A stretch of DNA of 56,597 nucleotides, taken from a virus. Below, piece after piece: positions 2,122 to 52,751 of this stretch; the stretch's first letter is position 1; every line of letters starts with the position of its first letter. Where the stretch lies: IMG/VR virus record IMGVR_UViG_3300020470_005093, positions 1 to 56,597 of that record. The stretch is one strand, 5' to 3'. Below the pieces are notes generated by a model. It had not been told where the DNA came from, made no database searches, and was given only the letters and a program-made list of their open reading frames with translations. The position numbers and the translations under genes are program-made.

Positions 2122-3909
2122 TTAAACCTTTTGTGTAGGTGGAACAAATACAGACTTCTCATTAGATAATTTAACCAATTTACCCAATTCAGGTAAATAC
2201 ATGTACTCTAATTGACTAGTATATAAAGTTTGAATAGCATCATCCAAAGTTTCTACTAATGGATGTCCTGCTAAATTAAAACTAGTATTGAATAGTAAAG
2301 GAACTCCAGATAGTTTATAAAACTCATTAATAAGATTATAATAGTTTTCATTCTGTTCTTTAGTAACAGTTTGAATTCTACAAGTACCATCTACATGAGT
2401 AACTGCTGGTATCTCACCTATATGCTTGTCTTGCATCTCCATAGCATACATCATATGAGGTGTCTCGTCAAGTCCACGCATTTGAAACCACTCTGCTGCA
2501 TGTTCTTGAAGCATAGAACCTGCAAATGGACGGAACCATTCCCTACCCTTTACTCTATTAACAAAGTCCTTACCTTTAGGATCTGTTGGATCATAAAGAA
2601 TAGAACGATTACCCAATGCTCGTGGTCCTGCCTCTGCTCTTCCTTGGAAAATAGAAACAATATTACGATCTTTAATTAATTGTGCAACCTCAGTAGGTGT
2701 TGTATCCGTTACTTCAATTAATTCATTATCTATATGTGCTTTTAAATTATCTAAAGTATAATTATATTCAGGACCAAGATAAAGAGTATTTAATCTTTCA
2801 GGCATTGGATATTCAACTTCTTCATCACCATTTTTACTTGCGTTTTCAGCAAATTTTTGCAGTCCAAAATATTTTGCATATCCAATCGCAGTTCCACCAT
2901 CATGAGATATTGGATCAACGTAAATATTCAACTCAGGAAATCTTTCTTTATAATAATAATTTGCTACAACATTTAATCCATAACCACCAGAAATACAAAT
3001 ATTATCTTCTCCAGTCATGTCAACTGCTTTTTCAATCAAATCACCTACATATTCCTGTGTTTCTTGTTGAACTTTCCATGCAATATTCTTTTGAGCATCT
3101 GTTATTTTTGCAGGATTCCTATGCCACTCATTAGGTTGACCCTTACTATGGGATAGATATGGAAATCTTTCCTTATCAATATATGAACCCATCGGATAAG
3201 CAGCAACAAAAACATTTTTATCCCCTCTCTTAGTATCTCTGTAAAAGAGATCAGGAATTTTATCATCTTGTCTACCATATGGAGCAAGTCCCATTGTTTT
3301 ACCTGCTTCAATAAATCCAAATCCCAAATAATCAGAGACTCCCTCATATGCTTTAACAGTGGTTACAGCAGAATCTACTTCAAAATCAGGTCTAGAAACT
3401 CTAGGAACCTGATTGTCACCATATCTCTTAAAAATAGGATCAAAGTCTCCAGGATAAGATGCTAAATATATGCTCTCAGTTTCTAATGCTTGCAAATTCA
3501 GTTCTTCATTATCAGATGCTTTAAGATTATGCCTACTACCACAACCATCAACAATTATACAAGCAGCACTTTCAAATCCTGAACCATAAAAAGTAGCAGC
3601 AGCATGTCCTAAATGATGTTCATTTCCAACTGCTAATACTTTTAAATTTGGATTAAATTTCCTAACCAATGCTTCATAAGAACTTTCACCAGTCCAAGGA
3701 AGTCTATGCTCTTCTTGCCCTGTTCCACATATAACCAAGAAATCTACATGATGGTCTTGCATTATATGAAGCATACCCCGAAAAGGATTGCCATCATACT
3801 TTTGACGACTCATCCTTTCCTCTTCAATATAATACTTTAATATACCATCAACCGTAAGTGCCACAGAACCATTGTGTCCTGGATTAATTGCCATCACATT
3901 CCAAGTCAT
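2122..3909 (-). CDS. carbamoyltransferase, NodU/CmcH family
   Basis: This full-length 595-aa protein matches O-carbamoyltransferases, which move a carbamoyl group from carbamoyl phosphate via carbamoyl-adenylate onto a hydroxyl of a sugar or similar acceptor. Visible marks are GHNGS at residues 11-15, the metal-binding HHLGH at 98-102, VDGCG at about 120, SGGYGLN in the middle, and the C-terminal YrdC-like region with FQGRAEAGPRALGNRSIL at about 420-437 and NTSFN near 540. It shares one base with the GT9-like gene and lies 2 bases from gmhB, so the three form an operon. The substrate is probably a surface or fibre sugar (inference). Confidence 0.88.
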   Translation of the reverse strand: MTWNVMAINPGHNGSVALTVDGILKYYIEEERMSRQKYDGNPFRGMLHIMQDHHVDFLVICGTGQEEHRLPWTGESSYEALVRKFNPNLKVLAVGNEHHLGHAAATFYGSGFESAACIIVDGCGSRHNLKASDNEELNLQALETESIYLASYPGDFDPIFKRYGDNQVPRVSRPDFEVDSAVTTVKAYEGVSDYLGFGFIEAGKTMGLAPYGRQDDKIPDLFYRDTKRGDKNVFVAAYPMGSYIDKERFPYLSHSKGQPNEWHRNPAKITDAQKNIAWKVQQETQEYVGDLIEKAVDMTGEDNICISGGYGLNVVANYYYKERFPELNIYVDPISHDGGTAIGYAKYFGLQKFAENASKNGDEEVEYPMPERLNTLYLGPEYNYTLDNLKAHIDNELIEVTDTTPTEVAQLIKDRNIVSIFQGRAEAGPRALGNRSILYDPTDPKGKDFVNRVKGREWFRPFAGSMLQEHAAEWFQMRGLDETPHMMYAMEMQDKHIGEIPAVTHVDGTCRIQTVTKEQNENYYNLINEFYKLSGVPLLFNTSFNLAGHPLVETLDDAIQTLYTSQLEYMYLPELGKLVKLSNEKSVFVPPTQKV

Positions 3910-4929: not shown

Positions 4930-6219
4930 CTATGTCGTAGTAACCCCCACAGTTGCTGCGAAACCAACAAATGATGCGCCTTCTTTTTTATATAAATTTT
5001 CAACATTAACATCTATCACGAAATTCCTACCAGCAATAACCGATTGTTGTTCCTCAACATCTCCTACAGTACCACCAGCACCAATCGTAGAAGCAATAGA
5101 AACAGTTATAGTGGATACTCCAGTTGTTCCTGATGGAGTAACTATTACGTTTCCTTGAGCAGGTGAAGTAATTATATCCTCAAATGGATAATTACGTACT
5201 CCTAATGTATAACCATATAATTCTGGAGCAGTTGTATTAGTATCAGTAATTATAATATTAAATGATCCACCAGCAACTACTTTAGTTGTACTTAATCCAA
5301 CAGTCTCACTTAAAGTTGGTCTGGTTTGTTCAACTAAAACACTCTTTGATCTCTCAAAAGTAACCACATCTCCAGTACCAATTCCAGATGAAATTGTAGA
5401 AGATAACGAAACTAACGGATGCTCAATTAGTCTTCTAAATTTAACAACGGCATCTGCATCTAAAGCAGATCCTATTGTAGATGCTAACGAAACTGTATTA
5501 TAAACAGTTCCACCAGCAGCAGCAGTTCCTACCCCAATAACTTTTTCAGAAATAGATCCAGACTCAAAAGTATCTCCTAATCCTATGTCTCCAATATCAT
5601 CAATTGCTATAGTACTTTGACCAACAGCTATATCATAACTCACAGCAGTTGTTTGTAGATCAATAATTGCATCTGTTTTAATACCTGCAACTGTACCAGT
5701 TATACTTCCTGTTTTTAATATATCACCAATCGAAACCTCACCAATATCATCTGTAGATATAATATCTGTTCCTACTCCACTAATTTCTCCTGTTTGAGTT
5801 GTATAAACCACAGTTGTTTCTGTACCATTTCCTACCCATGAAGTTGATCCTATTCCTAAAGGATCACTAAACTCAGGAATAAAAATATACACATCATCAG
5901 TAATTTCAGATTGTCCAGGTGCTAATGGCCAATCAGATTTAGCAAATTGATTAGGTGCTTTAGCATTTGATGGTAAATCACGCAATTTATCTCTATAGGT
6001 TGCCCATGCTGCTTTAGTAGTAGAATCTAATGCACCATCAGGAACTTGAGTCCAATCAGATGCTCCTAATGCACCATTTCTCCAATTTCTTAACTCATCA
6101 AGTCGTTGTTGTTTTGCACTTTCAAAAGCATCCATCTGCTCTTGCAATGATATCTGAGGATCTTTTGGACCCCCAGACTCAATTAACTCTCTTCCGTCTA
6201 CTGTAAAATGATGTCCCAT
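4930..6219 (-). CDS. virion structural protein with tail-assembly-chaperone-like N-terminal segment
   Basis: The protein is 429 aa. Residues about 30-105 contain DELRNWRNGALGASDWTQV, AWATYRDKLRDLPSN and SDWPLAP, the pattern of the phage tail fibre assembly chaperone domain (a W-x2-YR-x2-LRDLP core). The rest is a beta-rich, Thr/Ser/Gly/Val-dominated region with repeats such as 'STIAIDDIGDIGLGD' typical of cyanophage virion proteins. It is first in line after the cysteine-rich pair and has a GGAG ribosome binding site. It probably helps attach or fold the neighbouring fibres, or is itself a fibre; this is inference. Confidence 0.65.
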   Translation of the reverse strand: MGHHFTVDGRELIESGGPKDPQISLQEQMDAFESAKQQRLDELRNWRNGALGASDWTQVPDGALDSTTKAAWATYRDKLRDLPSNAKAPNQFAKSDWPLAPGQSEITDDVYIFIPEFSDPLGIGSTSWVGNGTETTVVYTTQTGEISGVGTDIISTDDIGEVSIGDILKTGSITGTVAGIKTDAIIDLQTTAVSYDIAVGQSTIAIDDIGDIGLGDTFESGSISEKVIGVGTAAAGGTVYNTVSLASTIGSALDADAVVKFRRLIEHPLVSLSSTISSGIGTGDVVTFERSKSVLVEQTRPTLSETVGLSTTKVVAGGSFNIIITDTNTTAPELYGYTLGVRNYPFEDIITSPAQGNVIVTPSGTTGVSTITVSIASTIGAGGTVGDVEEQQSVIAGRNFVIDVNVENLYKKEGASFVGFAATVGVTTT

Positions 6220-6233
6220 TTTTTTAAATCTCC

Positions 6234-7166
6234 TTATTCGTATGCATCATTCGCATCTGGTGCTGATGATCCAGACCATACACCCACGTTAACTGGTAAG
6301 CAGCACGGCCAACCCCATATTGTCCAATTTGGTATTGGATGTGGTAGAGCAACATCACCACATGATGTGTTACCGTAACTACCACCAGCTAATGCTGACA
6401 TGAAGAAGCAATTAGCAAAGAAACATATTGCACAAACATAATTATTAGCCTTTTGATTTTTACTCCATGCCGTACATGCGTTGCAATATGGTATTCCCAT
6501 CATTCTATTACATTGTGCTGGAAAATCACTCCGCCAATAAGGATGCCCCATCCAACATAAATCCCACATCCAATCTGAGTTACAATTACAGTAAGGAGCA
6601 CGAGCACCTCCTGGAGCAGCTTCAAGTTTTAAATCAAACCATCCTAAATTATCCAATCCACTTTGACAATAGTAGCACCATTTTTGATCTGCTCCTATCG
6701 TACATCCACATGTCCTACATCTGCACCAATAACAAAAACAACAAGAACCCATTGGCCAATTATTACATGCACATATTAGCCAATAGGTTTGTTGGCAACA
6801 ACACATGCAACCATTACTACTGACTATTCCTGCACAGAAGTAGATATAACAACATGCTTTAATTCTTTGTCCTGCGAAACAAAATCTAAATCCTCTATAC
6901 TTATTAGTATCAAGATCAAACTTAAAACATCCATTTTCAAAACAATTTGTCCAACAGTTGCAATGACAAATTACAACGTAGCAATTATCAGTGGTTGGTA
7001 AGTAATTTAATGTAGGTCTACATGCAGGAGTTTTTAGATTTGTGCAAAACAGATCACAAACTGCCTTACATGCATATTGACATACTTCAGCAGGGGTAGG
7101 TCCACTTGCTCCTCCACCACCAACAGTTCCTCCAGATGCAGTTTTAGTGCTTACATAACGTGCCAT
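6234..7166 (-). CDS. cysteine-rich putative tail-fibre protein, 310 aa
   Basis: By my count 42 of 310 residues are cysteine (about 13.5%), many in CC or CxC pairs (for instance CMCCCQQ, SCCFCYWCRCRTCGC). The first 27 residues are Cys-free, Gly/Ser/Thr-rich (SGGTVGGGGASG) and resemble a linker; the C-terminal 20 are also Cys-free. Aromatic residues (W, Y, F) are frequent between cysteines. No metal-cluster family is recognised. It shares one base with the 911-aa cysteine-rich gene upstream, so both belong to one transcript. No signal peptide or membrane helix is seen. Fibre function is inferred from position between structural genes. A metal-binding or disulfide-crosslinked adhesin are both possible. 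Confidence 0.6.
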   Translation of the reverse strand: MARYVSTKTASGGTVGGGGASGPTPAEVCQYACKAVCDLFCTNLKTPACRPTLNYLPTTDNCYVVICHCNCWTNCFENGCFKFDLDTNKYRGFRFCFAGQRIKACCYIYFCAGIVSSNGCMCCCQQTYWLICACNNWPMGSCCFCYWCRCRTCGCTIGADQKWCYYCQSGLDNLGWFDLKLEAAPGGARAPYCNCNSDWMWDLCWMGHPYWRSDFPAQCNRMMGIPYCNACTAWSKNQKANNYVCAICFFANCFFMSALAGGSYGNTSCGDVALPHPIPNWTIWGWPCCLPVNVGVWSGSSAPDANDAYE

Positions 7167-9901
7167 TAACCTTCATACCCCCATACTTGGAATGATATCT
7201 TACCAGCACCCGATGATCCATAGTTCTTAACGAAGATCTTATCACCATCACTTAGAACGACTCCCGTTCTTTCATATTGATTTATTGGTACGCATTGATC
7301 GATCATTCCTGCACAATCCATATTAGCAGTGAAACAATCACAACATCTATCGATACATGCAGGTGATGCCCTTAAGCAACAATATATGCATGGGTCTTGA
7401 CATGCGACCACAGTTCCTGGTAGTGATGACCAATTAACTAAGTCTTTTGTAGTAAATGCATCCCATCCACAAGTACAGCAGTTATAAAGACCTATACTCC
7501 ATGCACAATGCTCATATCTGAATAGACAAGATACACACATACGTGGTCTTGTATAGTAACTACATGTCCATTCTACTGGGAAGTTAGCTAACTTACAGAA
7601 GAACATAGAATTAATTCCAACTCCATCAGCATTCGGTACAGTATAACCAAACATAGTATCTTTACTAGGATGGTTATTAAGTCCAGAAGGATCTAATGGA
7701 ATCCATTGAGATGATTCAGCACCACCATAACTACCGTTACAACAAGACATATAACAATTTGCCATAGTTGCAGTATCACTACCACATGCACCACCAAGAC
7801 ATATACATCTTCGTTGCATACATGCATTAATACATTTCATATTAATTGAGAATATACCACATCCTGGATGAACTCCTCCACAGAAACTAGCAGTAGCAGG
7901 TCCAGTTCTTATCATCATATAATGACAATCACAACCTGGATGATAAGTAAAGTACTTAATAGGTAACTCAGTACCTGCGTATCGAGCACAATTAACACCA
8001 CCATCTCCACAAGAATATGTTTGTATATCAGGTCCGTATGCTAACCAAGTAGTATTTGGACAATCATAAACCCCACCAACATGCAATGTAAAGGTATTAT
8101 TGCACCAGTTACAATCTTGACAGCAACATTTGCAGAAACAATAACATGAATAGTGTGCTCCACCAATTCCATAAACAGCATTACAACAACTTATATGCCT
8201 CAACCACAGTTGTGCTCCACATGTCATCGCAGCCACAACACCATAAGGACTTATTGGACCACATGAAGAGTTTCTCATAAAGAAATTATTTCCTGTTCCA
8301 CAAGTAGGACAGAAATAAGAACAATGGCATGGTCTACACCAAATCATCTGTTCATTACTACCACATCCATTAACACACCACTGGTATTCAGTACCAGCGC
8401 ACAAACCTATTGTAGCAGTGGTGTAACAGAATTTACCACATTGGCTATTCCGATGACATGATTGACCACAATGTGCTTGACAACAATCAATACGTGTTAT
8501 AGGGTTACTCCATCTTGCTGTACAACAATCACACCTTTTAAATGGTGCAAAATGGAAGTATCCAGCTGGTGGTGTGCCTTTCGCTCCAATATAACCTTCA
8601 TAGTTAGTCAAGCCTAAGTAAGTTCCTGGAGTACATGAAGGACAACATGCACAATAACACATTGTCCATCCCTGTTGAACATGAGCAGTAGTTGCTACAC
8701 TAGAAACATCTTGATCACAATAACCATTATAATTAGCAAGACACATTAAGTTATACCAGTTATGCATAAAGAAACTTCCCCTCATTCCTGGATTCTCACC
8801 AGCACATTCGCTGAACCCAGCTTGAGTTCCTAATCTCATGTAGCATCTCTTACCACCTGGCATATAACAATTACAATAATTACACTTACAACAAACACAA
8901 TTATAAGGAACTGGGTTTGGAGTAGTAGGATTGCAACAAGATGATGTCCAACAACAAGGATTACTACCTGCACCCCAAGGTTTACAGAAGTAGTTACTTG
9001 GACAACCAGTTGGGTCTAGTTGCAATCTCTTTGCATCCCAACAAGATCCAATATGACAATGATTTACAACATATAGTTCTGGACCTTGCATCACATTATT
9101 ACAATAACTTTGACAACATCCACACATAAATCCTGGAAGTACTCCAACAAAAGCGGTTGCTGACATTATGCCACTAAAACACAACGCACAATTCTGTTTT
9201 GCTTGACATGCTGCACAATTACAGAACCAATTCCATCCTGGAAATACGTTAGTATTACCAACACCTAAATGAAGAGCAGTAATTTCAGTACCACCATAAT
9301 TACCTTTTACAAAGCAGCAATTCATGGGATTACCCCAACAACAACTACCTAAACATGTACAAACATTACAATATGGCCATTGCCATTTTTGACAACAATT
9401 AGCAGCAGTATTAGTACAATTTAAATCATTACGGCTATAAATTGTTCCAGCAGCACTTACAAATTCTGATGGATGTGGAATAGCTGTTCCTGATCCAAAA
9501 TAACTACATGTATTTGATAACTGACAACAACCAGTACATTGAGCATTATTAACACAACAGTGCAATCTCCACCAACCACATACACCTGCATCAGAAACTT
9601 CTGGTGTTGCACCATCAGTGCTCATATCCTCATTATACATCCATCCACTAAAGTTGCCCAAATTTCCAGCAACAGTAGTACCAACTCCAACACCAGTTGA
9701 AGTAAATAAAGTAGTTATTCCAGCCATTGCAGTTGTTGCCACACCAACAACAACAGATATTACTTGATTACTTGAAGTACTTAGAGAGTTTGCGAATAAA
9801 GTAACCGCATTTGACTTTCCAGAATCATTACTGTAAGCAATAAAATTACCAAAATCCGATTCTGTGTCTATTACCGTTCTGGTAAATCTTCCACTTGCCA
9901 T
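7166..9901 (-). CDS. large cysteine-rich putative tail-fibre/adhesin protein, 911 aa
   Basis: The N-terminal ~105 residues (MASGRFTRTVIDTESDFGNF onward) are Cys-free and look like the fibre-attachment part of cyanophage tail proteins. From about residue 107 to 870 there are about 111 cysteines (12% of the whole), again in CC and CxC groups, mixed with W, Y, G and N. The last ~35 residues are Cys-free and end in FVKNYGSSGAGKISFQVWGY, which looks like an ordinary fibre C-terminus. So a normal fibre frame seems to carry a huge cysteine-rich insert. One segment reads TTKDLVNWSSLPGTVV, resembling a beta-propeller or glycosidase-type blade. A strong ribosome binding site (GGAGGAG) precedes the ATG. 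Confidence 0.65.
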   Translation of the reverse strand: MASGRFTRTVIDTESDFGNFIAYSNDSGKSNAVTLFANSLSTSSNQVISVVVGVATTAMAGITTLFTSTGVGVGTTVAGNLGNFSGWMYNEDMSTDGATPEVSDAGVCGWWRLHCCVNNAQCTGCCQLSNTCSYFGSGTAIPHPSEFVSAAGTIYSRNDLNCTNTAANCCQKWQWPYCNVCTCLGSCCWGNPMNCCFVKGNYGGTEITALHLGVGNTNVFPGWNWFCNCAACQAKQNCALCFSGIMSATAFVGVLPGFMCGCCQSYCNNVMQGPELYVVNHCHIGSCWDAKRLQLDPTGCPSNYFCKPWGAGSNPCCWTSSCCNPTTPNPVPYNCVCCKCNYCNCYMPGGKRCYMRLGTQAGFSECAGENPGMRGSFFMHNWYNLMCLANYNGYCDQDVSSVATTAHVQQGWTMCYCACCPSCTPGTYLGLTNYEGYIGAKGTPPAGYFHFAPFKRCDCCTARWSNPITRIDCCQAHCGQSCHRNSQCGKFCYTTATIGLCAGTEYQWCVNGCGSNEQMIWCRPCHCSYFCPTCGTGNNFFMRNSSCGPISPYGVVAAMTCGAQLWLRHISCCNAVYGIGGAHYSCYCFCKCCCQDCNWCNNTFTLHVGGVYDCPNTTWLAYGPDIQTYSCGDGGVNCARYAGTELPIKYFTYHPGCDCHYMMIRTGPATASFCGGVHPGCGIFSINMKCINACMQRRCICLGGACGSDTATMANCYMSCCNGSYGGAESSQWIPLDPSGLNNHPSKDTMFGYTVPNADGVGINSMFFCKLANFPVEWTCSYYTRPRMCVSCLFRYEHCAWSIGLYNCCTCGWDAFTTKDLVNWSSLPGTVVACQDPCIYCCLRASPACIDRCCDCFTANMDCAGMIDQCVPINQYERTGVVLSDGDKIFVKNYGSSGAGKISFQVWGYEG

Positions 9902-9988: not shown

Positions 9989-10867
9989 TTATTTGGTTCT
10001 TGTTGTTCTACTCCCCCAACCAGAAGCAAAATAAGATGCAGAAGCATTACCACCTCCACCTCCACCACCACCAGCAATACTAACATCTACAGTAGTACCA
10101 TCTACAGCAAATGTATTACCAGCACCAACAAAGTTAAGGGTTTTAACTGGTGCTGTTGTTATAGCAGTTCCACCAGACTGAATACCAATATTAAATCCAC
10201 CAGTAGATGTAGTAACACCAGTAACAACAATTCCATCAGAATTAGTTACTACTCGATCTGATCCACCTACTTGAATTTTTAAACTACCAGTACCTGCATC
10301 ATTGATGAAAGAATTTCCAGAATCATGCCAGATCTGAAGATCTGCACCATCTCCCAGTTTTATTCGATCATTGTCACCCATGTTTAGATGACTAGTTACA
10401 GTAGCAACACCACTAATTGTTACGTTACCTGACAAATCAAATCGTGGAGCACCCGTCCCCATCTTCGCATAAGTAACACTTCCATCAGGTATAGTATTAA
10501 GTGTTAGATCTGTACCTAATATAATACCGAAAAATGATAATCCACTAATTGGGGCAGTAGTAAATGTAAGTTTAGTTCCTGCAACACTAAAATCCTGATT
10601 AGGATTCTGCATTACACCACCCAAACTAATCAACATCTGTTGACTGGTTACAGGAGAAACTCCAGCACCACCAACTGACATCGTAAATTCAGTTTCAGAT
10701 CCATCAAACCCAGAGGAAATATCATCTAATTCTCTAATATTAGCAACACGAGTTGTTGAAATACCAATACTTGTCCAGACAGTACCATTCCACTTATATG
10801 TAAAACCCGAACCACTATCCGAGTATTGTTGATTTACTGACGGGTTATCAGGAAAGTTAAGTGCCAT
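9989..10867 (-). CDS. virion structural / tail-fibre-like protein with poly-Gly tract, 292 aa
   Basis: The protein starts MALNFPDNPSVNQQYSDSG with a segment (FTYKWNGTVWTS) like a tail-fibre head-binding motif seen in many cyanophage fibres. The middle has repeats of beta-strand type (SGVATVTSHLNMGDNDRIKL, ADLQIWHDSGNSFI). Near the end is a run of eight glycines, followed by ASYFASGWGS. The 764-aa protein at 23577 has the same features (IGIQSGG, LNFVGAGNTF and poly-Gly), so the two are partial paralogues. A CTAAATA late box lies 17 bases upstream. Confidence 0.75.
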   Translation of the reverse strand: MALNFPDNPSVNQQYSDSGSGFTYKWNGTVWTSIGISTTRVANIRELDDISSGFDGSETEFTMSVGGAGVSPVTSQQMLISLGGVMQNPNQDFSVAGTKLTFTTAPISGLSFFGIILGTDLTLNTIPDGSVTYAKMGTGAPRFDLSGNVTISGVATVTSHLNMGDNDRIKLGDGADLQIWHDSGNSFINDAGTGSLKIQVGGSDRVVTNSDGIVVTGVTTSTGGFNIGIQSGGTAITTAPVKTLNFVGAGNTFAVDGTTVDVSIAGGGGGGGGNASASYFASGWGSRTTRTK

Positions 10868-10895: not shown

Positions 10896-12629
10896 TTAAG
10901 CATTTAAATCTTTAGCTATAGGACCAGTCCACATCGTCGTAACATCTCTATCCATTGTCCAATTAGTATCACTACCAATTTGAACTGGTGAGGAATAGCA
11001 GCAAGTTAATGCCCACGATCCACACCCTAGTTGTCCTTGACAATTAGATCCACTTGCCCATAAGGTTCCATCACATTTTCTCCAATATCCCACCCTACAT
11101 TGAGGACTCATAAAATCAGAATATACTCCTGCTGAATGAATTTGTATAGGAGATGAATATTTTTGAGTAACACAAGTATTATTACCCCAAATTGCTTTGT
11201 CTTCAGAACCCCATCCCCAGAAAGATCCATCAGCTTTCTTTGCTATGGATAATTTATCCCAACTAGAATAGACATCTTGCCAATTAGTATCACTACCAAT
11301 TTGGACTGGTGATGAATATTTTATTACATTATTTTGCCCTAATTGTCCTTGAGAATTATCTCCCCATGCCCATAATGTACCATTTGTCCTAACCGCAATT
11401 GTTCCATAATTAGAATGTGCTACTTTACTCCAATTAGTGTCCGTTCCTATCTGGACTGGTACTGACATTGACGTTGTGTTATTAATTCCTAAATTTCCAT
11501 TAGGATTATATCCCCATGACCACATTGTTCCGTCACATTTAATCATCGTAACAAACTCACAATTTGATAATAATGCTTTAGGTGATGTAAATGATGCAGC
11601 AGTTCCTACTTGAGTTGGTGATGATTGTCTAGGATGTCCATGAGCATTAAGTCCTAATTCTCCATAATTTTGACCACCCCATGCCCATAAAGTGCCATCA
11701 GTTCTAACCGCGTGCATTCTTTCAGCGCAAAGCATTGGATAAACTTTATACCAATTATTTCCAGGCACTTGTACAGGTGATGACCAACAAACCCATGATA
11801 TTGGAGCAATACAAGGGTTTGCAAGTAATCCACATTCATTTTTACCCCATGTCCATAATGTTCCATCTAATTTTGTACCTGCTTTTCTTCCAATAGATCT
11901 CCAATTAGTATCACTACTCATCTGAACTGGAGATGAATACGCAGAAGGTTGACACCCTCCAATAGAAGTTCCTGTTTTCGCATTTAATGGTTTATTTTGA
12001 TTTGCTCTCCAATCATAAGTTTTAGGAGCAAGAAATGTAGAATACATATTCTTATGCCCCCACACAGAAGCAGTATATGATGCATTTCTACAAAATTGCT
12101 CATATCCTATCCATGTAGATCCACCATCTCTTGTTATTAAATTAAATATTTGAGCATCAGTAGTACTAATACTCGCACCCACTAATGTTGGAGCAGTTCC
12201 ACCTTTCCAATATACATTTGCTGGCCATGTAATTGTTCTATTATTATCATCTGCATTCTTCTTTCTAATAATACGAAGTTCTTGATTATTACCATCTGTA
12301 TTCGCAAATGCAACAGTTGTATTAACATTTTGAGTAAAAGTTATAACATTTCCACTACTTAAATTAATAGTTGTTGTTCCAGAAACAGCAGTTACATTTT
12401 GTGCAGTAAAAGGAGCTTTTGCAACTCCTGACATATTACTACCATCACCTACCATATTAGTAGCACAAATAGTACCAACATTTAAACAAGAGTTATTTGT
12501 TAATCCCGTAGCAGTTCCCGTAAAATCACCATGAAATCCAGCAGTAGATGTGACTACTCCCGTTATATTCATAGAAGGGAATGTTGTTACACCAATAGGA
12601 TGTATTAATTGTACTTTAGTTTGACTCAT
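10896..12629 (-). CDS. RCC1-repeat tail-fibre protein 1, 577 aa
   Basis: The N-terminal ~70 residues (SQTKVQLIHPIGVTTF, GVVTSTAGFHGDFTGTATGL) are a fibre-attachment segment shared by all three neighbours, followed by a jelly-roll-like region (VITFTQNVNTTVAF) to about 200. Then come RCC1-type repeats of about 50 residues with LWxWGxNxxGQLGxN and SSPVQIGSDTNW. Seven SSPVQ-type ends can be counted, which matches a seven-bladed beta-propeller. RCC1 repeats here probably present a host-binding surface. Several cysteines sit in the loops between blades. It is 5 bases from the next RCC1 gene. Confidence 0.8.
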   Translation of the reverse strand: MSQTKVQLIHPIGVTTFPSMNITGVVTSTAGFHGDFTGTATGLTNNSCLNVGTICATNMVGDGSNMSGVAKAPFTAQNVTAVSGTTTINLSSGNVITFTQNVNTTVAFANTDGNNQELRIIRKKNADDNNRTITWPANVYWKGGTAPTLVGASISTTDAQIFNLITRDGGSTWIGYEQFCRNASYTASVWGHKNMYSTFLAPKTYDWRANQNKPLNAKTGTSIGGCQPSAYSSPVQMSSDTNWRSIGRKAGTKLDGTLWTWGKNECGLLANPCIAPISWVCWSSPVQVPGNNWYKVYPMLCAERMHAVRTDGTLWAWGGQNYGELGLNAHGHPRQSSPTQVGTAASFTSPKALLSNCEFVTMIKCDGTMWSWGYNPNGNLGINNTTSMSVPVQIGTDTNWSKVAHSNYGTIAVRTNGTLWAWGDNSQGQLGQNNVIKYSSPVQIGSDTNWQDVYSSWDKLSIAKKADGSFWGWGSEDKAIWGNNTCVTQKYSSPIQIHSAGVYSDFMSPQCRVGYWRKCDGTLWASGSNCQGQLGCGSWALTCCYSSPVQIGSDTNWTMDRDVTTMWTGPIAKDLNA

Positions 12630-12634
12630 TGTTT

Positions 12635-14431
12635 TTAACTAGATTTAAATGCCATAGAATTATTACAAAAAGTACCTAAACCACCACGAGGATTCCAATC
12701 AGTATCGGTTCCTACCTGAACTGGTGATGACCTTGCTGTTATACTATTTCCATTATCATTTACTCCATTGTTTCCTTGTTGATTCCATCCCCATGCCCAT
12801 AATGTACCATCAGTCTTAATACCAAGAGCAGCACATCCAGTACCAGAACTAGATAACCTAGCCCAATTACCAGGAAGATGGACTGGAGTTGTCCTTGTAG
12901 TAGTATCATTAAGTCCTAGCATTCCTCCTTGATTAGATCCCCATACAAACACACAATCATCACAATTTTTAGCCCAGAATGCTGACTTACCTAGAGCACC
13001 TACTGCAGTCCAATTACAACTAGTACCTATTCGAACTGGTGATGAATATGAAGTGCTTGTTGATGCATCAATCCCAAGTCCTCCGCAAGTATTAGAACCC
13101 CATGCCCATAATGCACCACCATTTGCAGTTGTAGATCTAATTCCAATTGAAGCATTTTCAGATCTAGTTACATCAGTCCAATATCCTCCACCACAAATTT
13201 GAACTGGTGTTGTAGCACAAGCTTCATTATCTTGACTTTTATTATTTCCCAAAACTCCTTCTAGAGAACTTCCCCACGACCATAATGTTCCATCAGTCTG
13301 GATTGCATGATATCCAATACCAGTTCCAGTATTAAGTGTTTTCCAATTATTAAAATTCCTATAACATACGGGAGTGCAGTTCTTCACCAAACAACTCTGT
13401 AAACAATACATATATTTTTGATCACACTCAAATCTTTGTCCACAATAGATTCGACCCCATGTCCATATTGATCCATCTCTTCCAATAGTAGCTCCTGACT
13501 GATACCCTCCAGATACTTGCAATACATCAGTACAATATCCACTAATAGTCCGTGATATTTGTACGGGAGATGAATATGGAGTAGATCTTGCTACACTAGT
13601 AGCATCTCCTCCAACACAACCAGCTAAAGCACCCTCATCTCCATAACCCTGACCCCAAAGAGATCCATCGCAACATATACCATAAAAATTATATCCAAAA
13701 TGATCAGTAGTTGCCCCTCTACAATTAGATAAATTATCTGCTCTAAAATATTTTTTTTCTCCTCCAATCAATACAGGTGAGGAACGTTTTCCATCAACAG
13801 TATTCCTTCCAAAAACTCCAGCAAAATCAGATCCCCAAATGTATCCAACAGCTGCTTGTGGATCATTTCTTACAGTTTCTTCAGCAACCCATAAATCTTT
13901 TGAATCATCATCTACTTGAGTAAAAGTAAATATTTGTTTAGCATCTTGTGAAGTATTAGATACTATACCAGGAGGTGAAGTTGGAGAATATACATCACCC
14001 CAAATTACATTTGATGGCCAAGTTATTGTTTTACCTTGCGTTGGAATTTTAATCTCCATTTCTATTTGCATGGTCCTAGTCTGACCTGTATTAGCAAATG
14101 AAACTGTAGAATCATGTAATGGTTTAAAAAATACTACATTACCCTTTGATATATCAAGTGTATGTGTTGCTCCTGATGTTACTGTAGTCTGACCTACTAA
14201 AGCAGGTGCTGCTGGCATATTACTTAAATTAGTTCCATCTCCTCGAAAAGAAGTGGCAGTTATAACACCTACACTTACTACAGAAGTACTAGCAGCAGCA
14301 ACTAGTCCCCCAACATTACCCGTTAAATTTCCAGTAAAAGAAGTAGCAGAAACCACTCCAGAATTAACCTTTATACTAGTAGCAGTAAAAGTTTCATTAG
14401 GGTCTATTAATTGTGCCTTCTTTTGACTCAT
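12635..14431 (-). CDS. RCC1-repeat tail-fibre protein 2, 598 aa
   Basis: This paralogue has the same plan as its neighbours: an attachment segment (MSQKKAQLIDPNETFTATS, SFTGNLTGNVGGL), a jelly-roll-like middle (THTLDISKGNVVFF, ITWPSNVIW) and RCC1-type blades ending in SSPVLIG, SSPVQIS, TTPVQIC, SSPVRIG, TTPVHLP and SSPVQVGTDTDW, plus one degenerate blade around CTPVCYRN. That gives seven. The degenerate blade lies in a cysteine-rich stretch (CGQRFECDQKYMYCLQSC). By eye there are about 25 cysteines in the protein. It has a CTAAATA box 18 bases upstream. Confidence 0.8.
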   Translation of the reverse strand: MSQKKAQLIDPNETFTATSIKVNSGVVSATSFTGNLTGNVGGLVAAASTSVVSVGVITATSFRGDGTNLSNMPAAPALVGQTTVTSGATHTLDISKGNVVFFKPLHDSTVSFANTGQTRTMQIEMEIKIPTQGKTITWPSNVIWGDVYSPTSPPGIVSNTSQDAKQIFTFTQVDDDSKDLWVAEETVRNDPQAAVGYIWGSDFAGVFGRNTVDGKRSSPVLIGGEKKYFRADNLSNCRGATTDHFGYNFYGICCDGSLWGQGYGDEGALAGCVGGDATSVARSTPYSSPVQISRTISGYCTDVLQVSGGYQSGATIGRDGSIWTWGRIYCGQRFECDQKYMYCLQSCLVKNCTPVCYRNFNNWKTLNTGTGIGYHAIQTDGTLWSWGSSLEGVLGNNKSQDNEACATTPVQICGGGYWTDVTRSENASIGIRSTTANGGALWAWGSNTCGGLGIDASTSTSYSSPVRIGTSCNWTAVGALGKSAFWAKNCDDCVFVWGSNQGGMLGLNDTTTRTTPVHLPGNWARLSSSGTGCAALGIKTDGTLWAWGWNQQGNNGVNDNGNSITARSSPVQVGTDTDWNPRGGLGTFCNNSMAFKSS

Positions 14432-14449
14432 TAGAATATTATTTTTAAA

Positions 14450-14456
14450 TATTTAG
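14450..14456 (-). promoter_or_regulatory. putative late promoter (CTAAATA)
   Basis: The minus strand reads GCTAAATATTT in the 21-base gap before the second RCC1 gene, 18 bases from its ATG. It overlaps the last codons of the third RCC1 gene. Sequence and spacing match the other CTAAATA sites. Confidence 0.5.
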
Positions 14457-16231
14457 CAAGTTACTGAAATAGCCGCATGATGGCAAAAACTACCAGATAC
14501 TCCACCAAATTTTCTATCATTCATAATCTGAACTGGTGAAGATACTCTTTTATTAGCACAACAGCAATTTATACCACGTTTACCATCTTGATTAGATCCC
14601 CATGTCCATAGTCTTCCGCAACAATCTACTGCAGCTGCAGAATCTCCAGCAAGATGAAGACATTGTATATAATCACCACCCATTGTACGAACTGGTGAAG
14701 AAACACCTCCACTAGTACAACTTTGATTTTCTGATACGTTACAACCTATTACTCCAGATGAATGACTACCCCACATCCATAATTCATTAGATCCTTTTAA
14801 TCCTGCACCATTATATTCTCCACCCCAAACACACTTCCAATCAGTATCGGTTCCTACTTGTCTAGGAGAACAAGGAAATCCAGCTTGTCCATTTGCCCAT
14901 GAAGAATTGCCAGTTTGACCATAATGACCACAACCCCATGAATATAATTTTCCATCATGTGTAACTCCTAATGAACCTGATTGCATCATTGCAATAGCTT
15001 TCCAACAAAGAGCTGCACAAACTTTAGCTGGTTGAGATTTATTATTAATACTAGTTCCAAGTTGTCCTGCTGATCTTTGTGCTTGATAATTCCTACCAAA
15101 TCCCCATAATGTTCCACAATTATCTATAGCAAGAGCACCATCTTGACCAAACGAAAGACATTTCCATCTATATCCAATACAATGGCATATTTGAATTGGT
15201 ACTGAATAAGAAGACTCCCTATTATTACCTAGTTGTCCACTTCCACCATTACCCCATGTCCACATTGTTCCATTCTGTTTAATTGCTCCTGCTGTAGCTG
15301 CATGTCCAGCATTTGTATTACCAAGAGATTGCCAATCACTATCAATTCCTATCTGAACTGGTGATGATCTACTAATAGAGTGGTCTTCATTCGTTCCAAG
15401 AACTCCTTGAGTATTCTGCCCCCATGACCATAATGTTCCATCCTTTTTAAGACCTAAAGCATAATAATGTCCCCATTGTATATCTTTAAAATCACTATAT
15501 GGATTACAACCACTCATCCATGAAGCTCCAATAGAAACTGGTGATGAATACTTACTACACTCAGCACAGCTGCCATCTCCACCTCCCCATTGGGCGTTCA
15601 TTCCAAACCATCCTTTCCTATGCTCCCATCCCCATGCCCACACATTAGTAGTACTTGGATCTGAACGAACTGTTTCACTTCCATACCAACTTGCACCAGA
15701 ATTTGTAGTAAGTAAAGTTATTTCTTGAACATTATTACATCTTGGATTAAAAATACTATCAGGTTTTTGTCCGTCTCCTTCCCAAGTAATATTCGAAGGC
15801 CAATTAAGATATATTTCACAGTTACATCGAGCACATATAGGTTTTCTAACAATTCTTACCTCACCACTTCCAGTAGAAGTATTGGAAAATCCTACTGTAG
15901 CAGTTCCATTAAAACCACCATCCTCAATATGAACTACATTACCCTTTGATAAATCAATAGTATATGTTGCTGCAGATGTAAACGAAGTAGTTTGTCCAAT
16001 ATATGATGTTCCCGCCAATCCTGTTATTCCCGCTCCACTTCCTCTATATGTGGTTGCTGTTACAATAGCACCAACTACATTAGGACTGCCCGTTAAATTA
16101 GTAGCTGTACCCGTAGTATTTCCTTCAAAACCAGTAGCAGTTACAACTCCAGTTACATTAATTCCTCCACCAAACTCTATATGTCCTGCAACTGAAGGGT
16201 CTACTAATTGTGCTCTTGGTAACTTAGCCAT
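14453..16231 (-). CDS. RCC1-repeat tail-fibre protein 3, 592 aa
   Basis: The third tandem paralogue starts MAKLPRAQLVDPSVAGHI, then the shared GVVTATGFEGNTTGTATNL segment and a jelly-roll-like region (TYTIDLSKGNVVHIEDGG). RCC1-type blades follow with ends SSPVSIG, SSPVQIGIDSDW, SVPIQIC, SQPAKVC, CSPRQVGTDTDW, SSPVRTM and SSPVQIM, again seven. About 33 cysteines are present, mostly in inter-blade loops (for example GINCCCANKRVSSP and CARCNCEIYLNW). The loops differ strongly between the three paralogues while the WG and SSPVQ cores do not, which suggests diversifying host-contact loops. Confidence 0.8.
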   Translation of the reverse strand: MAKLPRAQLVDPSVAGHIEFGGGINVTGVVTATGFEGNTTGTATNLTGSPNVVGAIVTATTYRGSGAGITGLAGTSYIGQTTSFTSAATYTIDLSKGNVVHIEDGGFNGTATVGFSNTSTGSGEVRIVRKPICARCNCEIYLNWPSNITWEGDGQKPDSIFNPRCNNVQEITLLTTNSGASWYGSETVRSDPSTTNVWAWGWEHRKGWFGMNAQWGGGDGSCAECSKYSSPVSIGASWMSGCNPYSDFKDIQWGHYYALGLKKDGTLWSWGQNTQGVLGTNEDHSISRSSPVQIGIDSDWQSLGNTNAGHAATAGAIKQNGTMWTWGNGGSGQLGNNRESSYSVPIQICHCIGYRWKCLSFGQDGALAIDNCGTLWGFGRNYQAQRSAGQLGTSINNKSQPAKVCAALCWKAIAMMQSGSLGVTHDGKLYSWGCGHYGQTGNSSWANGQAGFPCSPRQVGTDTDWKCVWGGEYNGAGLKGSNELWMWGSHSSGVIGCNVSENQSCTSGGVSSPVRTMGGDYIQCLHLAGDSAAAVDCCGRLWTWGSNQDGKRGINCCCANKRVSSPVQIMNDRKFGGVSGSFCHHAAISVTC

Positions 16232-16242
16232 TTATCAATTTC

Positions 16243-16269
16243 TATTTAAGGCTTGCTTTTCTTATTTAT
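16243..16269 (-). promoter_or_regulatory. possible late promoter region (TTAAATA and ATAAATA)
   Basis: Before the third RCC1 gene the minus strand holds TTAAATA at 16243-16249 (11 bases from the ATG) and ATAAATA at 16263-16269 (31 bases from the ATG, overlapping the end of hldD). The second has a spacing like other late sites in this phage. Either could be the late box. Confidence 0.35.
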
Positions 16270-17053
16270 CTTTAATATAATCCTCCACTGTTTTAAACTT
16301 ATAATCACCCCATTCTTTTTTAGCACGAGTGTATTCTTGATACTTACCTTCTAAGTGCTTTGGAAATGGTATATATTCTATCGTACCATTATATTTCTCT
16401 GCTACTAGTTCTCCTACTTCTTGAAAACTAATAGGATTGCTTGTTCCTAAATCATAGATACCTGATGGTTTATCATTATTCAATACAATATCCACAACAT
16501 CATCTACACATATAAAGTCTCTAAGGTATCTATCAGACCCCTTAAATAATTTAAGTGTTCCTGTCTCTTTAATTTGTTTAGTAAATTTATGCACAGGACT
16601 TGCTTGATCCTCCTTATGATCTTCACCTTCTCCATAGACATTAAAGTACCTAAATCCTTGTATTAATTCAAATCTATCCATATTATCTAAAACCCAATAG
16701 TCCATGATGACTTTGGATATAGCATAGTAGTTAAGTGGATTGATTAAGTTCTCTTTATTAAGATGTCCATAGACTGATGCTGATGATGCATACTTAATTG
16801 GTATTTTATATCTGATTGCTTGCTCAAATAACCATTGACTAAACTCAACATTAAAATGATTGATTGCCTTTAGATTGGTGCAAGTGGTATCAGAAATTGC
16901 ACCTTGATGTAGTATGAGTTCTACCTTATGCCACTCATTAAAAGTACGAAAGTGCCAACTGTTTCTTTTTTCAACTTTAACTACTTCTTTTCCTGATAAT
17001 TTTTCAAGAAACTTTTTCCCTATAAACCCCTCATCACCTGTTAGTATAATCAT
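16262..17053 (-). CDS. hldD: ADP-L-glycero-D-manno-heptose 6-epimerase (HldD-like)
   Basis: This 263-aa short-chain dehydrogenase has TGDEGFIGKK (residues 5-14, NAD(P) loop), LILHQGAISDTT (47-57), YASSASVYG (88-96) and the catalytic YYAISK (Tyr110, Lys114), then FRYFNVYGEGEDHKED and IEYIPFPKHLEGKYQ. The last two match E. coli HldD closely in form (FRYFNVYG and IEYIPFPDKL), which is why I prefer HldD to other sugar epimerases. HldD converts ADP-D,D-heptose to ADP-L,D-heptose. It is about 45 residues shorter than E. coli HldD. It is the last gene of the sugar operon and is followed closely by the RCC1 genes. Confidence 0.85.
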   Translation of the reverse strand: MIILTGDEGFIGKKFLEKLSGKEVVKVEKRNSWHFRTFNEWHKVELILHQGAISDTTCTNLKAINHFNVEFSQWLFEQAIRYKIPIKYASSASVYGHLNKENLINPLNYYAISKVIMDYWVLDNMDRFELIQGFRYFNVYGEGEDHKEDQASPVHKFTKQIKETGTLKLFKGSDRYLRDFICVDDVVDIVLNNDKPSGIYDLGTSNPISFQEVGELVAEKYNGTIEYIPFPKHLEGKYQEYTRAKKEWGDYKFKTVEDYIKDK

Positions 17054-17055
17054 AG

Positions 17056-17412
17056 TTAATCACCTTTAAATATTCTGTATGAATCTTCATCAAAATGTTG
17101 AGTAGAAAATTCAAATAATTCAGTATCACTCAATGCAATCATTTGATGTCTCAATCCTCTATAAACATAAAATTTATCTCCAGGTTCTAATATAGTAGTT
17201 TTTGCTTTCGAAAGATCATCAGTATCACCATAAAATAAATGAATCTTTCCAGATTGAATATAAAATGTTTCGTCTTTTAATTTATGATAGTGCCATGAAC
17301 ATCTCTTATTCTTCCTAATAAACAAAAGCTTGCCACAATACTCTGGAGAATTGGCAATCCATTTCTCAAATCCCCATCCTTTTTTTACGTATTTAATTTC
17401 TGAAGAAGTCAT
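17056..17412 (-). CDS. cupin-fold protein (sugar isomerase/WbuC-like)
   Basis: A 118-aa single-domain cupin with SWHYHKLKDETFYIQSGKIHLFYGD (about residues 40-63: the HxH...E of cupin motif 1) and DKFYVYRGLRHQMIAL (motif 2, with a second metal histidine). Such cupins in surface-sugar clusters are often phosphomannose-isomerase-like or epimerase-like, but the substrate is unknown. The start is set at the ATG at 17412, which has AAGGA about 9 bases upstream; an earlier ATG at 17433 would add seven residues. It overlaps the HAD gene upstream by 20 bases. Confidence 0.7.
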   Translation of the reverse strand: MTSSEIKYVKKGWGFEKWIANSPEYCGKLLFIRKNKRCSWHYHKLKDETFYIQSGKIHLFYGDTDDLSKAKTTILEPGDKFYVYRGLRHQMIALSDTELFEFSTQHFDEDSYRIFKGD

Positions 17413-17731
17413 CACAATTGATTCCTTTGTCATCTATGAATAGATCTGCATGAGGTTTACCCATAATCAATTCGTTATACTTACAACCCCAATCATCTAA
17501 TTGTTGTTTTGTAAGATCAAATAAAGCTGCCTCTGCTGATACAGATGCTATAGAATGAGGTTGATCAGAAAATCTACCCATTGCTCGTGCAGTGAAATAG
17601 ATTATGTAATTACCCTCATCGTAAAGTTTATTTAGTACCTTGATCCTATCCTGCCAAGGTTCTGCTTTATGGTAATCTCTACCTACAGTAGGTGTACAAA
17701 TTGTACCATCAATATCAACACAATATCTCAT
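17393..17731 (-). CDS. HAD-superfamily hydrolase, capsule/sugar-phosphate type
   Basis: The 112-aa protein starts MRYCVDIDGTICTP, giving the HAD motif I D-x-D-G-T at residues 5-9, and has the motif II region YIIYFTARAMGRFSD (Thr/Ser at about 46). The C-terminus GKPHADLFIDDKGINCDDF supplies Lys and the paired Asp of motifs III and IV. Proteins like this occur in capsule and LPS clusters. It overlaps the HldE-kinase gene by 17 bases and the cupin gene by 20 bases, which indicates a coupled operon. The substrate is not known. Confidence 0.7.
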   Translation of the reverse strand: MRYCVDIDGTICTPTVGRDYHKAEPWQDRIKVLNKLYDEGNYIIYFTARAMGRFSDQPHSIASVSAEAALFDLTKQQLDDWGCKYNELIMGKPHADLFIDDKGINCDDFFRN

Positions 17732-18443
17732 TTATATCCTCCTTTGTTAATACATAAGTTCCTGCATGTGATACAGCAATTGCTGCTGCTTTATTTGCAT
17801 AAGGGATTGCAGTCTCTATTGATTTAGTTTGTATATAACCAACAACTAATGCTGCAAGGAAAGTATCACCTGCACCAGCAACATCAAAGACGTTTACTTT
17901 CTCTGCTGGATATAATTTGCCTTGATACTCTGCACCTTTCCCACCTCTAGTTATAATCAAATTATCTGTTGGTGTTTTTAAATTCTCATATTCAATATCA
18001 TTTACTTTAGTAAAGCATCCATGAGGTATTTCTTGCTTTTTAGTGTCAACAAATACTGGACCTTGAAAAGAATAAACTATCTCGAATAATTTCTCTTGTG
18101 TTATGAATCCTTTGTTATAATCTGATATAACAAGAGCATCATAATTATCTTCTGGTTTTTCAAACTTTAATTCTTCAACCTCATATTCTTCATCGACACG
18201 AAGAATTTGTTGATTTGATTTCTTATCAATATATCTAGTCTTTACAATCTCCTCCTCTTGAGTAATCATATCAACTTCAGCACCAAAAGCATTTAGATTA
18301 TTGAAAACATTCCATGCCATTCCCTCCGTTTTAGTTGTCCTAATATAATTTAACACAGGAACAGGTGCTTCTGGACTCAACCGTTTGGCATCACCATAAA
18401 CATATTTGTCAATACAACTATCACCAATTAACAATATTTTCAT
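17715..18443 (-). CDS. hldE: HldE kinase half (PfkB-family D-glycero-beta-D-manno-heptose-7-phosphate kinase)
   Basis: A 242-aa ribokinase/PfkB protein. GDSCIDKYVYGDAKRLSPEAPVPVL (residues 7-31) is the pattern of the N-terminal half of HldE (RfaE domain 1), VISDYNKGFI lies in the middle, and DVAGAGDTFLAALVVGY near 190-205 carries the GAGD catalytic Asp. The E. coli half is about 320 aa, so this is a compact form. It phosphorylates heptose-7-phosphate at C1. The next gene supplies the nucleotidyltransferase half, so the usual fusion is split into two polypeptides here. It overlaps its neighbour by ATGA. Confidence 0.82.
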   Translation of the reverse strand: MKILLIGDSCIDKYVYGDAKRLSPEAPVPVLNYIRTTKTEGMAWNVFNNLNAFGAEVDMITQEEEIVKTRYIDKKSNQQILRVDEEYEVEELKFEKPEDNYDALVISDYNKGFITQEKLFEIVYSFQGPVFVDTKKQEIPHGCFTKVNDIEYENLKTPTDNLIITRGGKGAEYQGKLYPAEKVNVFDVAGAGDTFLAALVVGYIQTKSIETAIPYANKAAAIAVSHAGTYVLTKEDINEILC

Positions 18444-18841
18444 AGGTTCTGTATTTTCTTAACTGTTTTACTACTAGCATAACCTCCCACTCTTGGAAGA
18501 AATCTTGTTTCCATAGCATATTCCCAACCAACTACATCACCATCCCTCCAATCATCACCAAGTAATAGTATATCAGGTTCATATAATTGAATCAAGCCTT
18601 CTAATTCTTTTCTGTCACAAAACGTCAACACAACATCAATATACTTGATTGCCTCAAGCATTGCAACTCTATACTTTAAATCATTGATAGGTTTATGATC
18701 ACCTTTATCCTTTTTTATCTTCTCATCAGTATCCGTGGCAACAATAACCTTATCACCCAGTGATCTTGCAACTTTAAAAAGTTCTATATGACCTGGATGT
18801 AGAATATCAAATGTTCCATTAGTCCATACAATTTTAGACAC
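18440..18841 (-). CDS. hldE: HldE nucleotidyltransferase half (cytidylyltransferase-like, D-glycero-beta-D-manno-heptose-1-phosphate adenylyltransferase)
   Basis: The 133-aa protein has TNGTFDILHPGHIELFKVAR (residues 7-26) with the HxGH motif of cytidylyltransferase-like nucleotidyl transferases, and ends with GGYASSKTVKKIQ, near the usual S-x-T-x3-I signature. It matches HldE domain 2, which attaches AMP to heptose-1-phosphate, giving ADP-heptose. It sits directly after the 2OG oxygenase (8-base overlap) and before the kinase half (ATGA overlap). Together with gmhB and hldD this covers four of the five steps of the pathway; gmhA is not seen in the window. Confidence 0.82.
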   Translation of the reverse strand: MSKIVWTNGTFDILHPGHIELFKVARSLGDKVIVATDTDEKIKKDKGDHKPINDLKYRVAMLEAIKYIDVVLTFCDRKELEGLIQLYEPDILLLGDDWRDGDVVGWEYAMETRFLPRVGGYASSKTVKKIQNL

Positions 18842-19586
18842 GATAAACCTCGTCTACAGTTACCATACTTGCCCTCTTGTTGATGATTCTATTCACTTCA
18901 GGATCATCTTTCTGTTCCTCAGTAGGAATATAAATTGCCTTTGAATTTATAGGACAATTTTTTACAGGATCAGTTAGATAATAAACTGCTATACTCTTTC
19001 TGTAACACTTCTCAGGACACTCTAAAGGAGTGGGTAATCCATGATATGAGTTTTGTGTCGTATCAAAAATTACAGCACGATTAAACAAAGTATCAATAGA
19101 AGTTACACATTCTTTTCTATCTGCTGACCAGAATTCTAATTGACCTTTCCACTCAGGATTCCAGTTCTCTGCAAGATAAACAATAAGATTTAACTTCCGT
19201 TGGAGTTTCAGTTTAGGATGTATAGAATAATCAAGATGTATGTTAAGTTTACCACCTTTTTCATGTATATGCAACCCTCCACCATGCAAACCAACATCAG
19301 GATAGAGTTTCTTAATACCAGTAATTTTTTTTAACTTAGATATAAATGTAGGTGAATTTAAATAGCAAAATGTAGAATATAAATTTCTAGGAAACAAATT
19401 CCATACGTTACATGTCTTTTTATTTTCTAATGGATTATCATATACATACCAGACATCAGAATTATAATCAGGAAACTCACGACTTAATGATATAGCAGTC
19501 TCCTCATCAAAAAAATTATCTATAACTGCATGATGAAATGGTTTTCCTGAAGTAAACTCATTTTTTAATTTGAGTTGATTAATCAT
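18834..19586 (-). CDS. 2-oxoglutarate/Fe(II)-dependent oxygenase (prolyl-4-hydroxylase-like)
   Basis: The 250-aa protein has HEKGGKLNIHLDYSIHP (about residues 108-124), containing the HxD iron ligand pair, and NSYHGLPTPLECPEKCYRKSIAVYYLT (about 180-206), giving the distal histidine and the arginine that binds 2-oxoglutarate. This is the double-stranded beta-helix core of P4H-type oxygenases. T4-like cyanophages often carry such enzymes, with uncertain substrates: proteins, nucleic acids or sugars. Its position among sugar genes suggests modification of a surface glycan or fibre (inference). Confidence 0.8.
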   Translation of the reverse strand: MINQLKLKNEFTSGKPFHHAVIDNFFDEETAISLSREFPDYNSDVWYVYDNPLENKKTCNVWNLFPRNLYSTFCYLNSPTFISKLKKITGIKKLYPDVGLHGGGLHIHEKGGKLNIHLDYSIHPKLKLQRKLNLIVYLAENWNPEWKGQLEFWSADRKECVTSIDTLFNRAVIFDTTQNSYHGLPTPLECPEKCYRKSIAVYYLTDPVKNCPINSKAIYIPTEEQKDDPEVNRIINKRASMVTVDEVYRV

Positions 19587-36636: not shown

Positions 36637-36905
36637 TAGTCGTCGTAAACTTTACATTCTGCTGCATCTGGATGATTATCACAATAGACCTCTAGATGTG
36701 AATCCTCGTGTCTGGTGTGCCAATCATTTATCTTTCCATCATTTGAATTTACTTCTGATTCATCATGAGCATGAAATGCATCATTGTGCATTTTCAAATC
36801 CTCTTCACTATACTCGTGCATACCATGATTGATATGCTCCTTACCATCTTTAGGATCTAGGTAAACCTCATGGTTTAAATCGTGATTTGGAGTTTTAGTA
36901 GTCAT
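36636..36905 (-). CDS. small histidine-rich acidic protein, 89 aa
   Basis: Of 89 residues about 12 are histidine and many are Asp or Glu (for example NHDLNHEVYLDPKDGKEHIN and DWHTRHEDSHLEVYCDNHPD). Two cysteines lie near the C-terminus. It sits between gp27 and gp5 and could bind metal (iron or zinc) at the spike or act as a chaperone; I cannot name it. It shares one base with the gp5-like gene and is 9 bases from gp27. Confidence 0.6.
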   Translation of the reverse strand: MTTKTPNHDLNHEVYLDPKDGKEHINHGMHEYSEEDLKMHNDAFHAHDESEVNSNDGKINDWHTRHEDSHLEVYCDNHPDAAECKVYDD

Positions 36906-52622: not shown

Positions 52623-52655
52623 TGGCTTTCTCCAAAGTAGTAGGGATTTTTGCCC

Positions 52656-52697: not shown

Positions 52698-52701
52698 ATT
52701 C

Positions 52702-52742: not shown

Positions 52743-52751
52743 ATTGTGTTA

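Follow-up and report, generated by a model that had tools for sequence, protein, structure and literature searches.

Mycobacteriophage glycosyltransferases (GTs) act on their own virion proteins. To our knowledge, the cysteine (Cys)-enriched virions closest to the case described here are those of the phages Milano and 7-7-1. Their Cys content is 2.4-2.6%, with proven disulfides (PMC10491603, PMC12796354). TibC/AAH heptosyltransferases glycosylate serine (Ser) residues of autotransporter adhesins (PMC4358343). No paper on Cys-rich cyanophage adhesins was found in a literature search that lacked most subscription journals. Receptor-binding proteins decide which Prochlorococcus or Synechococcus cells a phage infects, and their chemistry is hardly known. 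We analyzed a viral DNA stretch of 56,597 nucleotides (IMG/VR record IMGVR_UViG_3300020470_005093; hereafter the window), in which two adjacent genes encode very Cys-rich proteins of 310 and 911 amino acids (aa), close to a gene for a GT9-like (heptosyltransferase-type) enzyme. Judged from their location, both are probably distal tail adhesins, in a class of Cys-loaded tail proteins built on several unrelated scaffolds. Their cysteines may well be mainly heptose acceptors (S-glycosylation), a reading to which we give somewhat less than even confidence. More broadly, we propose, tentatively and clearly short of even confidence, that a system for the S-glycosylation of cysteines in tail adhesins, with up to 13% Cys as acceptor sites, is encoded by phages of several unrelated groups. 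It would include a GT9-type transferase and, in cyanophages, a carbamoyltransferase and their own supply of ADP-heptose.

An earlier note on this DNA had counted about 42 and 111 Cys in the two proteins, or 12-14%, and these counts were exact (42/310 aa and 111/911 aa), as was its contrast with an ordinary fibre, the 1999-aa fibre of the window having four. In a set of 325 open reading frames (ORFs) of at least 120 aa, drawn from the window and 12 related regions, Cys content had a median of 0.86% and a 95th percentile of 3.4%, and only the 310-aa and 911-aa proteins and their orthologues exceeded 6.2%. The other structural proteins of the window, RCC1 proteins apart, contained 0-2% Cys, so that a Milano-type enrichment across several structural proteins was not found. 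The Cys codons of the two genes were ordinary, mostly TGT, matching the low GC content at third codon positions. An artefact or a non-standard decoding of TGT/TGC was ruled out by orthologues in an independently sequenced single particle; cultured phages also have Cys-rich proteins, and Cys is normal elsewhere in the same genomes.

Groups of CC and CxC, pointed out in the earlier note, are present, but their frequency is that of chance at such a density. In the 911-aa protein, CC occurred 19 times (16.1 expected), CxC 18 times (16.0 expected) and CxxC 20 times (16.0 expected). Periodic CxC or CxxC of the metallothionein or Zn-ribbon type was not found in the window proteins, lags 1-3 all lying within chance. 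The unusual feature is therefore the density of Cys and not its spacing. The same note had suggested metal binding. Adhesins holding Fe, Zn or Cu through thiolates would be a thiolate version of the iron-loaded tail fibres proposed for marine phages, where HxH motifs would bind the iron (PMC11705849). We consider this very improbable, since CxC and CxxC are not enriched, aromatic residues are many, His makes up only 1-2% and no metal-protein family was matched; Ferrojan-type binding was likewise rejected for want of any signal.

Neither protein matched a Pfam family at E 0.1 or better, Gly_rich_2 (PF21722) included, and searches of PDB and PHROG gave no match. Profile comparison indicated that the 310-aa and 911-aa families are unrelated to each other. 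AlphaFold models from few-sequence alignments were unusable, with predicted local distance difference test scores of 27 and 23, and a Cys-dense DNA pattern, which matched nothing even inside the window, was too insensitive for a wider scan. The ends of both proteins are free of Cys, as had been noted, and the idea that they are fibre ends finds some support, in a refined form, for the 911-aa family. The ends of its orthologues resemble a small MASG-type virion protein (MASGILGQ... family), with profile E values of 1e-3 in IMG/VR contig 3300020470_003365 (L009) and 2e-3, for the C-terminal part only, in AG-345-O18 (MH319759, L003); the window copy itself gave a non-significant E of 1. P-SSM2, S-CAM3 and other phages encode a small protein of this type upstream of their Cys-rich genes. 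The Cys-rich part thus looks like a large insert, and the 911-aa protein may be a MASG-type domain carrying it.

Both genes occur in the same order in AG-345-O18, from a plate of sorted extracellular particles (PMC6122165), and in L009, with 9.6-10.7% Cys, and a third contig (L010) encodes part of the 310-aa protein at 92% identity. Scans of IMG/VR with the two families detected only L009 and one fragment, and a scan with the carbamoyltransferase detected only the fragment contig L010. No bacterial homologue of the 911-aa family or of the GT was found in a genome collection by a pattern method that reaches close relatives only. Between AG-345-O18 and L009, all 31 Cys of the 290-aa proteins are kept, making Cys the best-conserved residue (non-Cys identity 76%, overall 78%), and in the 758/757-aa pair 68 of 80 are kept, second to Pro (non-Cys identity 72%). 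The ratio of nonsynonymous to synonymous substitution rates (dN/dS) was 0.5-0.6 for the Cys-rich genes, compared with 0.17-0.2 for two neighbours, the genes of the 420-aa fibre and of the carbamoyltransferase; the tail-chaperone-like neighbour evolves as fast as the Cys-rich genes. Selection therefore acts on the Cys of these otherwise fast-evolving proteins. AG-345-O18 and L009 also encode a third large fibre-like protein (L003:17453-20716, 1087 aa; L009:17439-20753, 1104 aa), whose C-terminal part is a Cys-rich domain of its own, about 235 aa long and with up to 16 Cys per 100 aa; no counterpart of this protein was seen in the window.

This conservation supports the disulfides suggested in the earlier note, and adhesins hardened by disulfides are a substantial possibility and the nearest competitor of S-glycosylation, although a somewhat doubtful one. 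The cysteines would pair once the particle is assembled or once it is released into oxygenated seawater, giving small, stable, loop-dominated domains rich in Trp, Gly and Pro whose loops diversify, and the sugar genes would modify another target such as lipopolysaccharide (LPS). In the S-SSM7/Sf-FS3 pairs of Cys-rich proteins, 83-90% of the Cys are likewise conserved, against a non-Cys identity of 63-70%, and the Agrobacterium phages Milano and 7-7-1 provide a precedent in their particle-stabilising virion disulfide networks (PMC10491603, PMC12796354). However, the Cys density is four to five times that of Milano structural proteins and is restricted to adhesins, the counts are often odd and the spacing is random. 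In the more distant P-SSM2/F15 pairs, Cys conservation is only 0.53-0.56, the level of other residues. Disulfides also leave unexplained the link to the GT9-like neighbour, which points to a third reading, glycosylation of cysteine.

The slot occupied by the two genes was located in other phages by synteny, using the adjacent 314-aa GT9-like protein as anchor. In P-SSM2, S-SSM7, S-CAM3, Sf-FS3 and the particles AG-345-P14 and AG-345-F15 it is occupied by one to three proteins, each with 24-36 Cys (7.6-11.6%). All are "hypothetical" where annotated, and most belong to phrog_4205 or phrog_35878 (unknown function). No similarity to the 310-aa and 911-aa proteins was detectable. Three passed the Gly_rich_2 cut-off of 24.3 bits (S-SSM7_114, 24.9; S-SSM7_116, 26.4; S-CAM3 gp156, 33.9), S-CAM3 gp157 stayed below it (19.3), and P-SSM2_304, P-SSM2_306 and S-CAM3 gp158 gave no hit. 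The earlier view that no described family is involved thus holds for the window pair, which is outside Pfam and PHROGs, but not for these same-slot cousins, which are in PHROGs and partly in Gly_rich_2. Finding unrelated Cys-rich proteins at one slot suggests that several unrelated adhesin families became Cys-rich there. A further Cys-rich protein of AG-345-P14 (L023:5117-5965; 282 aa, 26 Cys), without PHROG or Pfam match, apparently represents another unrelated family.

In every one of the 12 phages with a homologue of the GT (T4-GC302 / phrog_8954) whose neighbourhood was read, a Cys-enriched tail gene was next to this homologue or no more than two genes away: the window, L009, AG-345-O18, AG-345-P14, AG-345-F15, P-SSM2, S-SSM7, S-CAM3, Sf-FS3, Vibrio phages D505 and SBP1, and Aeromonas phage HJ05. 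In the last three (41 Cys in each of the Vibrio proteins and 23 in HJ05) the two genes directly adjoin. Homologous Vibrio tail proteins contained 2.3-4.4% Cys with the GT and 0.2-1.2% in four phages without a GT hit (pooled Fisher p 5e-13, treating residues as independent). Among 12 cyanophage genomes, the GT and phrog_4205 were both present in the same four and both absent from the other eight (p 0.002). This pairing suggests a role for the cysteines, as carriers of sugars or in disulfides, where the virus contacts its host. The Cys positions differ among these proteins. In the Vibrio phages they are distributed over an Ala-rich stalk that appears helical ("CVCACAYADG"), and beta-roll-like repeats ("NTTGCCNVSIG") also carry them, several being in repeat turns in Pelagibacter phage HTVC111P. 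In HJ05 they lie in the C-terminal half, which reads as having Gly_rich_2-like features. Odd Cys totals are common. Cys on unrelated folds, helical stalks included, counts for glycosylation because disulfide pairing has no obvious logic there. S-glycosylation would be the simplest account, as it covers the link to the GT gene, the many different folds, the odd totals and the random spacing.

The assignment of the enzyme came from its family. Nine of 13 homologues matched Pfam Glyco_transf_9 (PF01075; best 1.1e-5), and PDB heptosyltransferases I and II matched the family profile at E 0.0018-0.025, heptosyltransferase I (E 0.0018) being aligned at the C-terminal region. The window also encodes a putative ADP-heptose-type cassette (16262-18841), whose RfaE-I-like, RfaE-II-like, phosphatase and epimerase products would make ADP-heptose. 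The GT9-like enzyme would then move heptose onto the Cys thiols of freshly synthesised adhesins in the reducing cytoplasm, which keeps thiols free, and the carbamoyltransferase may further decorate the sugar. The virion would end up with a dense coat of S-linked glycans where it meets the host. For some cysteines, disulfide pairing may take the place of a sugar, and both chemistries may coexist. Marine Synechococcus LPS is reportedly devoid of heptose, which would speak against a role of the pathway in the ordinary LPS core of the host. Alternatively, the Cys-rich adhesins and the GT9, carbamoyltransferase and heptose genes could simply share one exchangeable module, the enzymes acting on host LPS and the cysteines serving a purpose unrelated to them. 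Cyanophage LPS-type gene clusters are indeed known as possibly mobile cassettes (PMC3037559). We regard this as unlikely, because Vibrio and Aeromonas phages show the link too, with the GT adjoining the Cys-enriched tail gene and no surrounding sugar cassette annotated, and because a heptose kinase alone is not accompanied by Cys-rich adhesins: S-SM2 and P-TIM68 have the kinase but lack the GT, and their entire genomes encode no Cys-rich adhesin.

Several points weigh against S-glycosylation. No glycan has been observed, and the acceptor of TibC is serine, not cysteine. The window GT alone had no GT9 Pfam match, so its assignment came via the homologues. No convincing acceptor motif was found around the Cys, only a mild Arg/Asn bias. 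The 31/31 conservation in close orthologues is explained at least as well by disulfides. The cyanophages share ancestry and are not independent cases, and joint transfer of their GT and Cys-rich genes could reflect no more than membership of one host-interaction module. A 13th phage, HTVC111P, is a weak case, its adjacent tail gene encoding 12 Cys in 811 aa. In the Vibrio, Aeromonas and Pelagibacter phages, the host might have to supply the ADP-heptose.

Table. Features of the window and of the orthologous contigs L003 and L009
Feature	Position	Strand	Basis
Cys-rich tail adhesin (predicted), 310 aa, 42 Cys (13.5%), Cys at residues 29-289	6234..7166	-	ORF count
Cys-rich tail adhesin (predicted), 911 aa, 111 Cys (12.2%), Cys at residues 108-870	7166..9901	-	ORF count
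911-aa orthologue, 758 aa, 73 Cys	L003:10016-12292		
911-aa orthologue, 757 aa, 75 Cys	L009:10001-12274		
310-aa orthologue, 290 aa, 31 Cys	L003:12289-13161		
310-aa orthologue, 290 aa, 31 Cys	L009:12274-13146		
GT9-like protein, 314 aa	3909..4853	-	homologue profile matches
Nol/NodU-type carbamoyltransferase, possible decorator of sugar	2122..3909	-	
Protein with Phage_tail_APC (tail assembly chaperone) domain, 429 aa, 0 Cys	4930..6219	-	domain match
Fibre-related protein, 292 aa, 0 Cys; upstream partner, order conserved	9989..10867	-	
RCC1 beta-propeller tail protein, 17 Cys (2.9%)	10896..12629	-	
RCC1 beta-propeller tail protein, 19 Cys (3.2%)	12635..14431	-	
RCC1 beta-propeller tail protein, 26 Cys (4.4%)	14453..16231	-	
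ADP-heptose 6-epimerase-like	16262..17053	-	TIGR02197 E 4e-62, below curated cut-off
Cupin of sugar cassette	17056..17433	-	
HAD-type sugar phosphatase-like	17393..17731	-	TIGR01689 E 1.3e-7
Heptose-7-phosphate kinase-like (RfaE domain I)	17715..18443	-	TIGR02198 E 2.3e-43
Heptose-1-phosphate adenylyltransferase-like (RfaE domain II)	18440..18841	-	TIGR02199 E 4e-30
Cyanophage tail fibre, 1999 aa, 4 Cys	26294..32293	-	phage record matches

Cys enrichment was also found in the three RCC1 propellers of the window (10896-16231), which the earlier note had missed. They contain 2.9-4.4% Cys, compared with 0-1.3% in the RCC1 proteins of S-SRM01 and BUCT-ZZ01 (Fisher p 1e-9). By inspection, the extra Cys lie mainly in longer loops, a position that would suit disulfides. 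Similar sets of RCC1 proteins, at ordinary Cys levels, occur in S-SRM01 and AG-345-E08.

The 1999-aa fibre matched 460 phage records, nearly all from T4-like phages of Synechococcus or Prochlorococcus, which places the virus among the T4-like cyanophages, and gp5-like, gp26-like and gp59-like genes were found in the window. On this gene content the virus is a T4-like, cyanomyovirus-like cyanophage and the window its tail and host-interaction module; the hosts are probably picocyanobacteria. The tail-region placement given to the Cys-rich genes at the outset was supported by these tail genes, by the Phage_tail_APC neighbour and by the fibre neighbours. Genes of the 2OG-Fe(II) oxygenase, glycosyltransferase-25-like and TPR types form a run amid fibre genes at 18834-23550 (minus strand), resembling the tail region of S-SRM01. 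An 89-aa protein with 13.5% His and 14.6% Asp (36636-36905, minus strand) is encoded next to the baseplate lysozyme gene, and S-SM2 has a small CP12 gene at a comparable place. A 46-bp tandem duplication (52655-52745; two copies, 79% matches) was located in a stretch without a long ORF.

Cys-loaded adhesins recurrently paired with a GT9-like enzyme would represent either a new protein S-glycosylation system or a new class of disulfide-built adhesins, and over a dozen "hypothetical proteins" in P-SSM2 and other model cyanophages become a concrete, testable question. Among the systems compared, the phrog_4205/phrog_35878 proteins of P-SSM2, S-SSM7, S-CAM3 and Sf-FS3 share with the window pair the slot before the GT9-like gene and the high Cys content, but their sequence is a Cys-rich form of Gly_rich_2. 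The Cys-rich cousins that match this family carry about 10% Cys, and the window proteins fall outside it. The virion glycosylation of mycobacteriophages is alike in that a phage GT acts on its own virion, but it has no link to Cys-rich acceptors. Milano and 7-7-1 likewise have Cys-enriched virion proteins, but these are in sheath, neck and capsid and do not reach 8-13% in adhesins. TibC acts on Ser and carries an iron finger of four Cys, whereas this finger is absent from the phage enzyme, no Cys being conserved among the 13 GT homologues, and the putative acceptor is Cys. The likeness to TibC/AAH with TibA/AIDA-I is that in both cases a GT9-like gene adjoins the adhesin gene and ADP-heptose is the likely donor.

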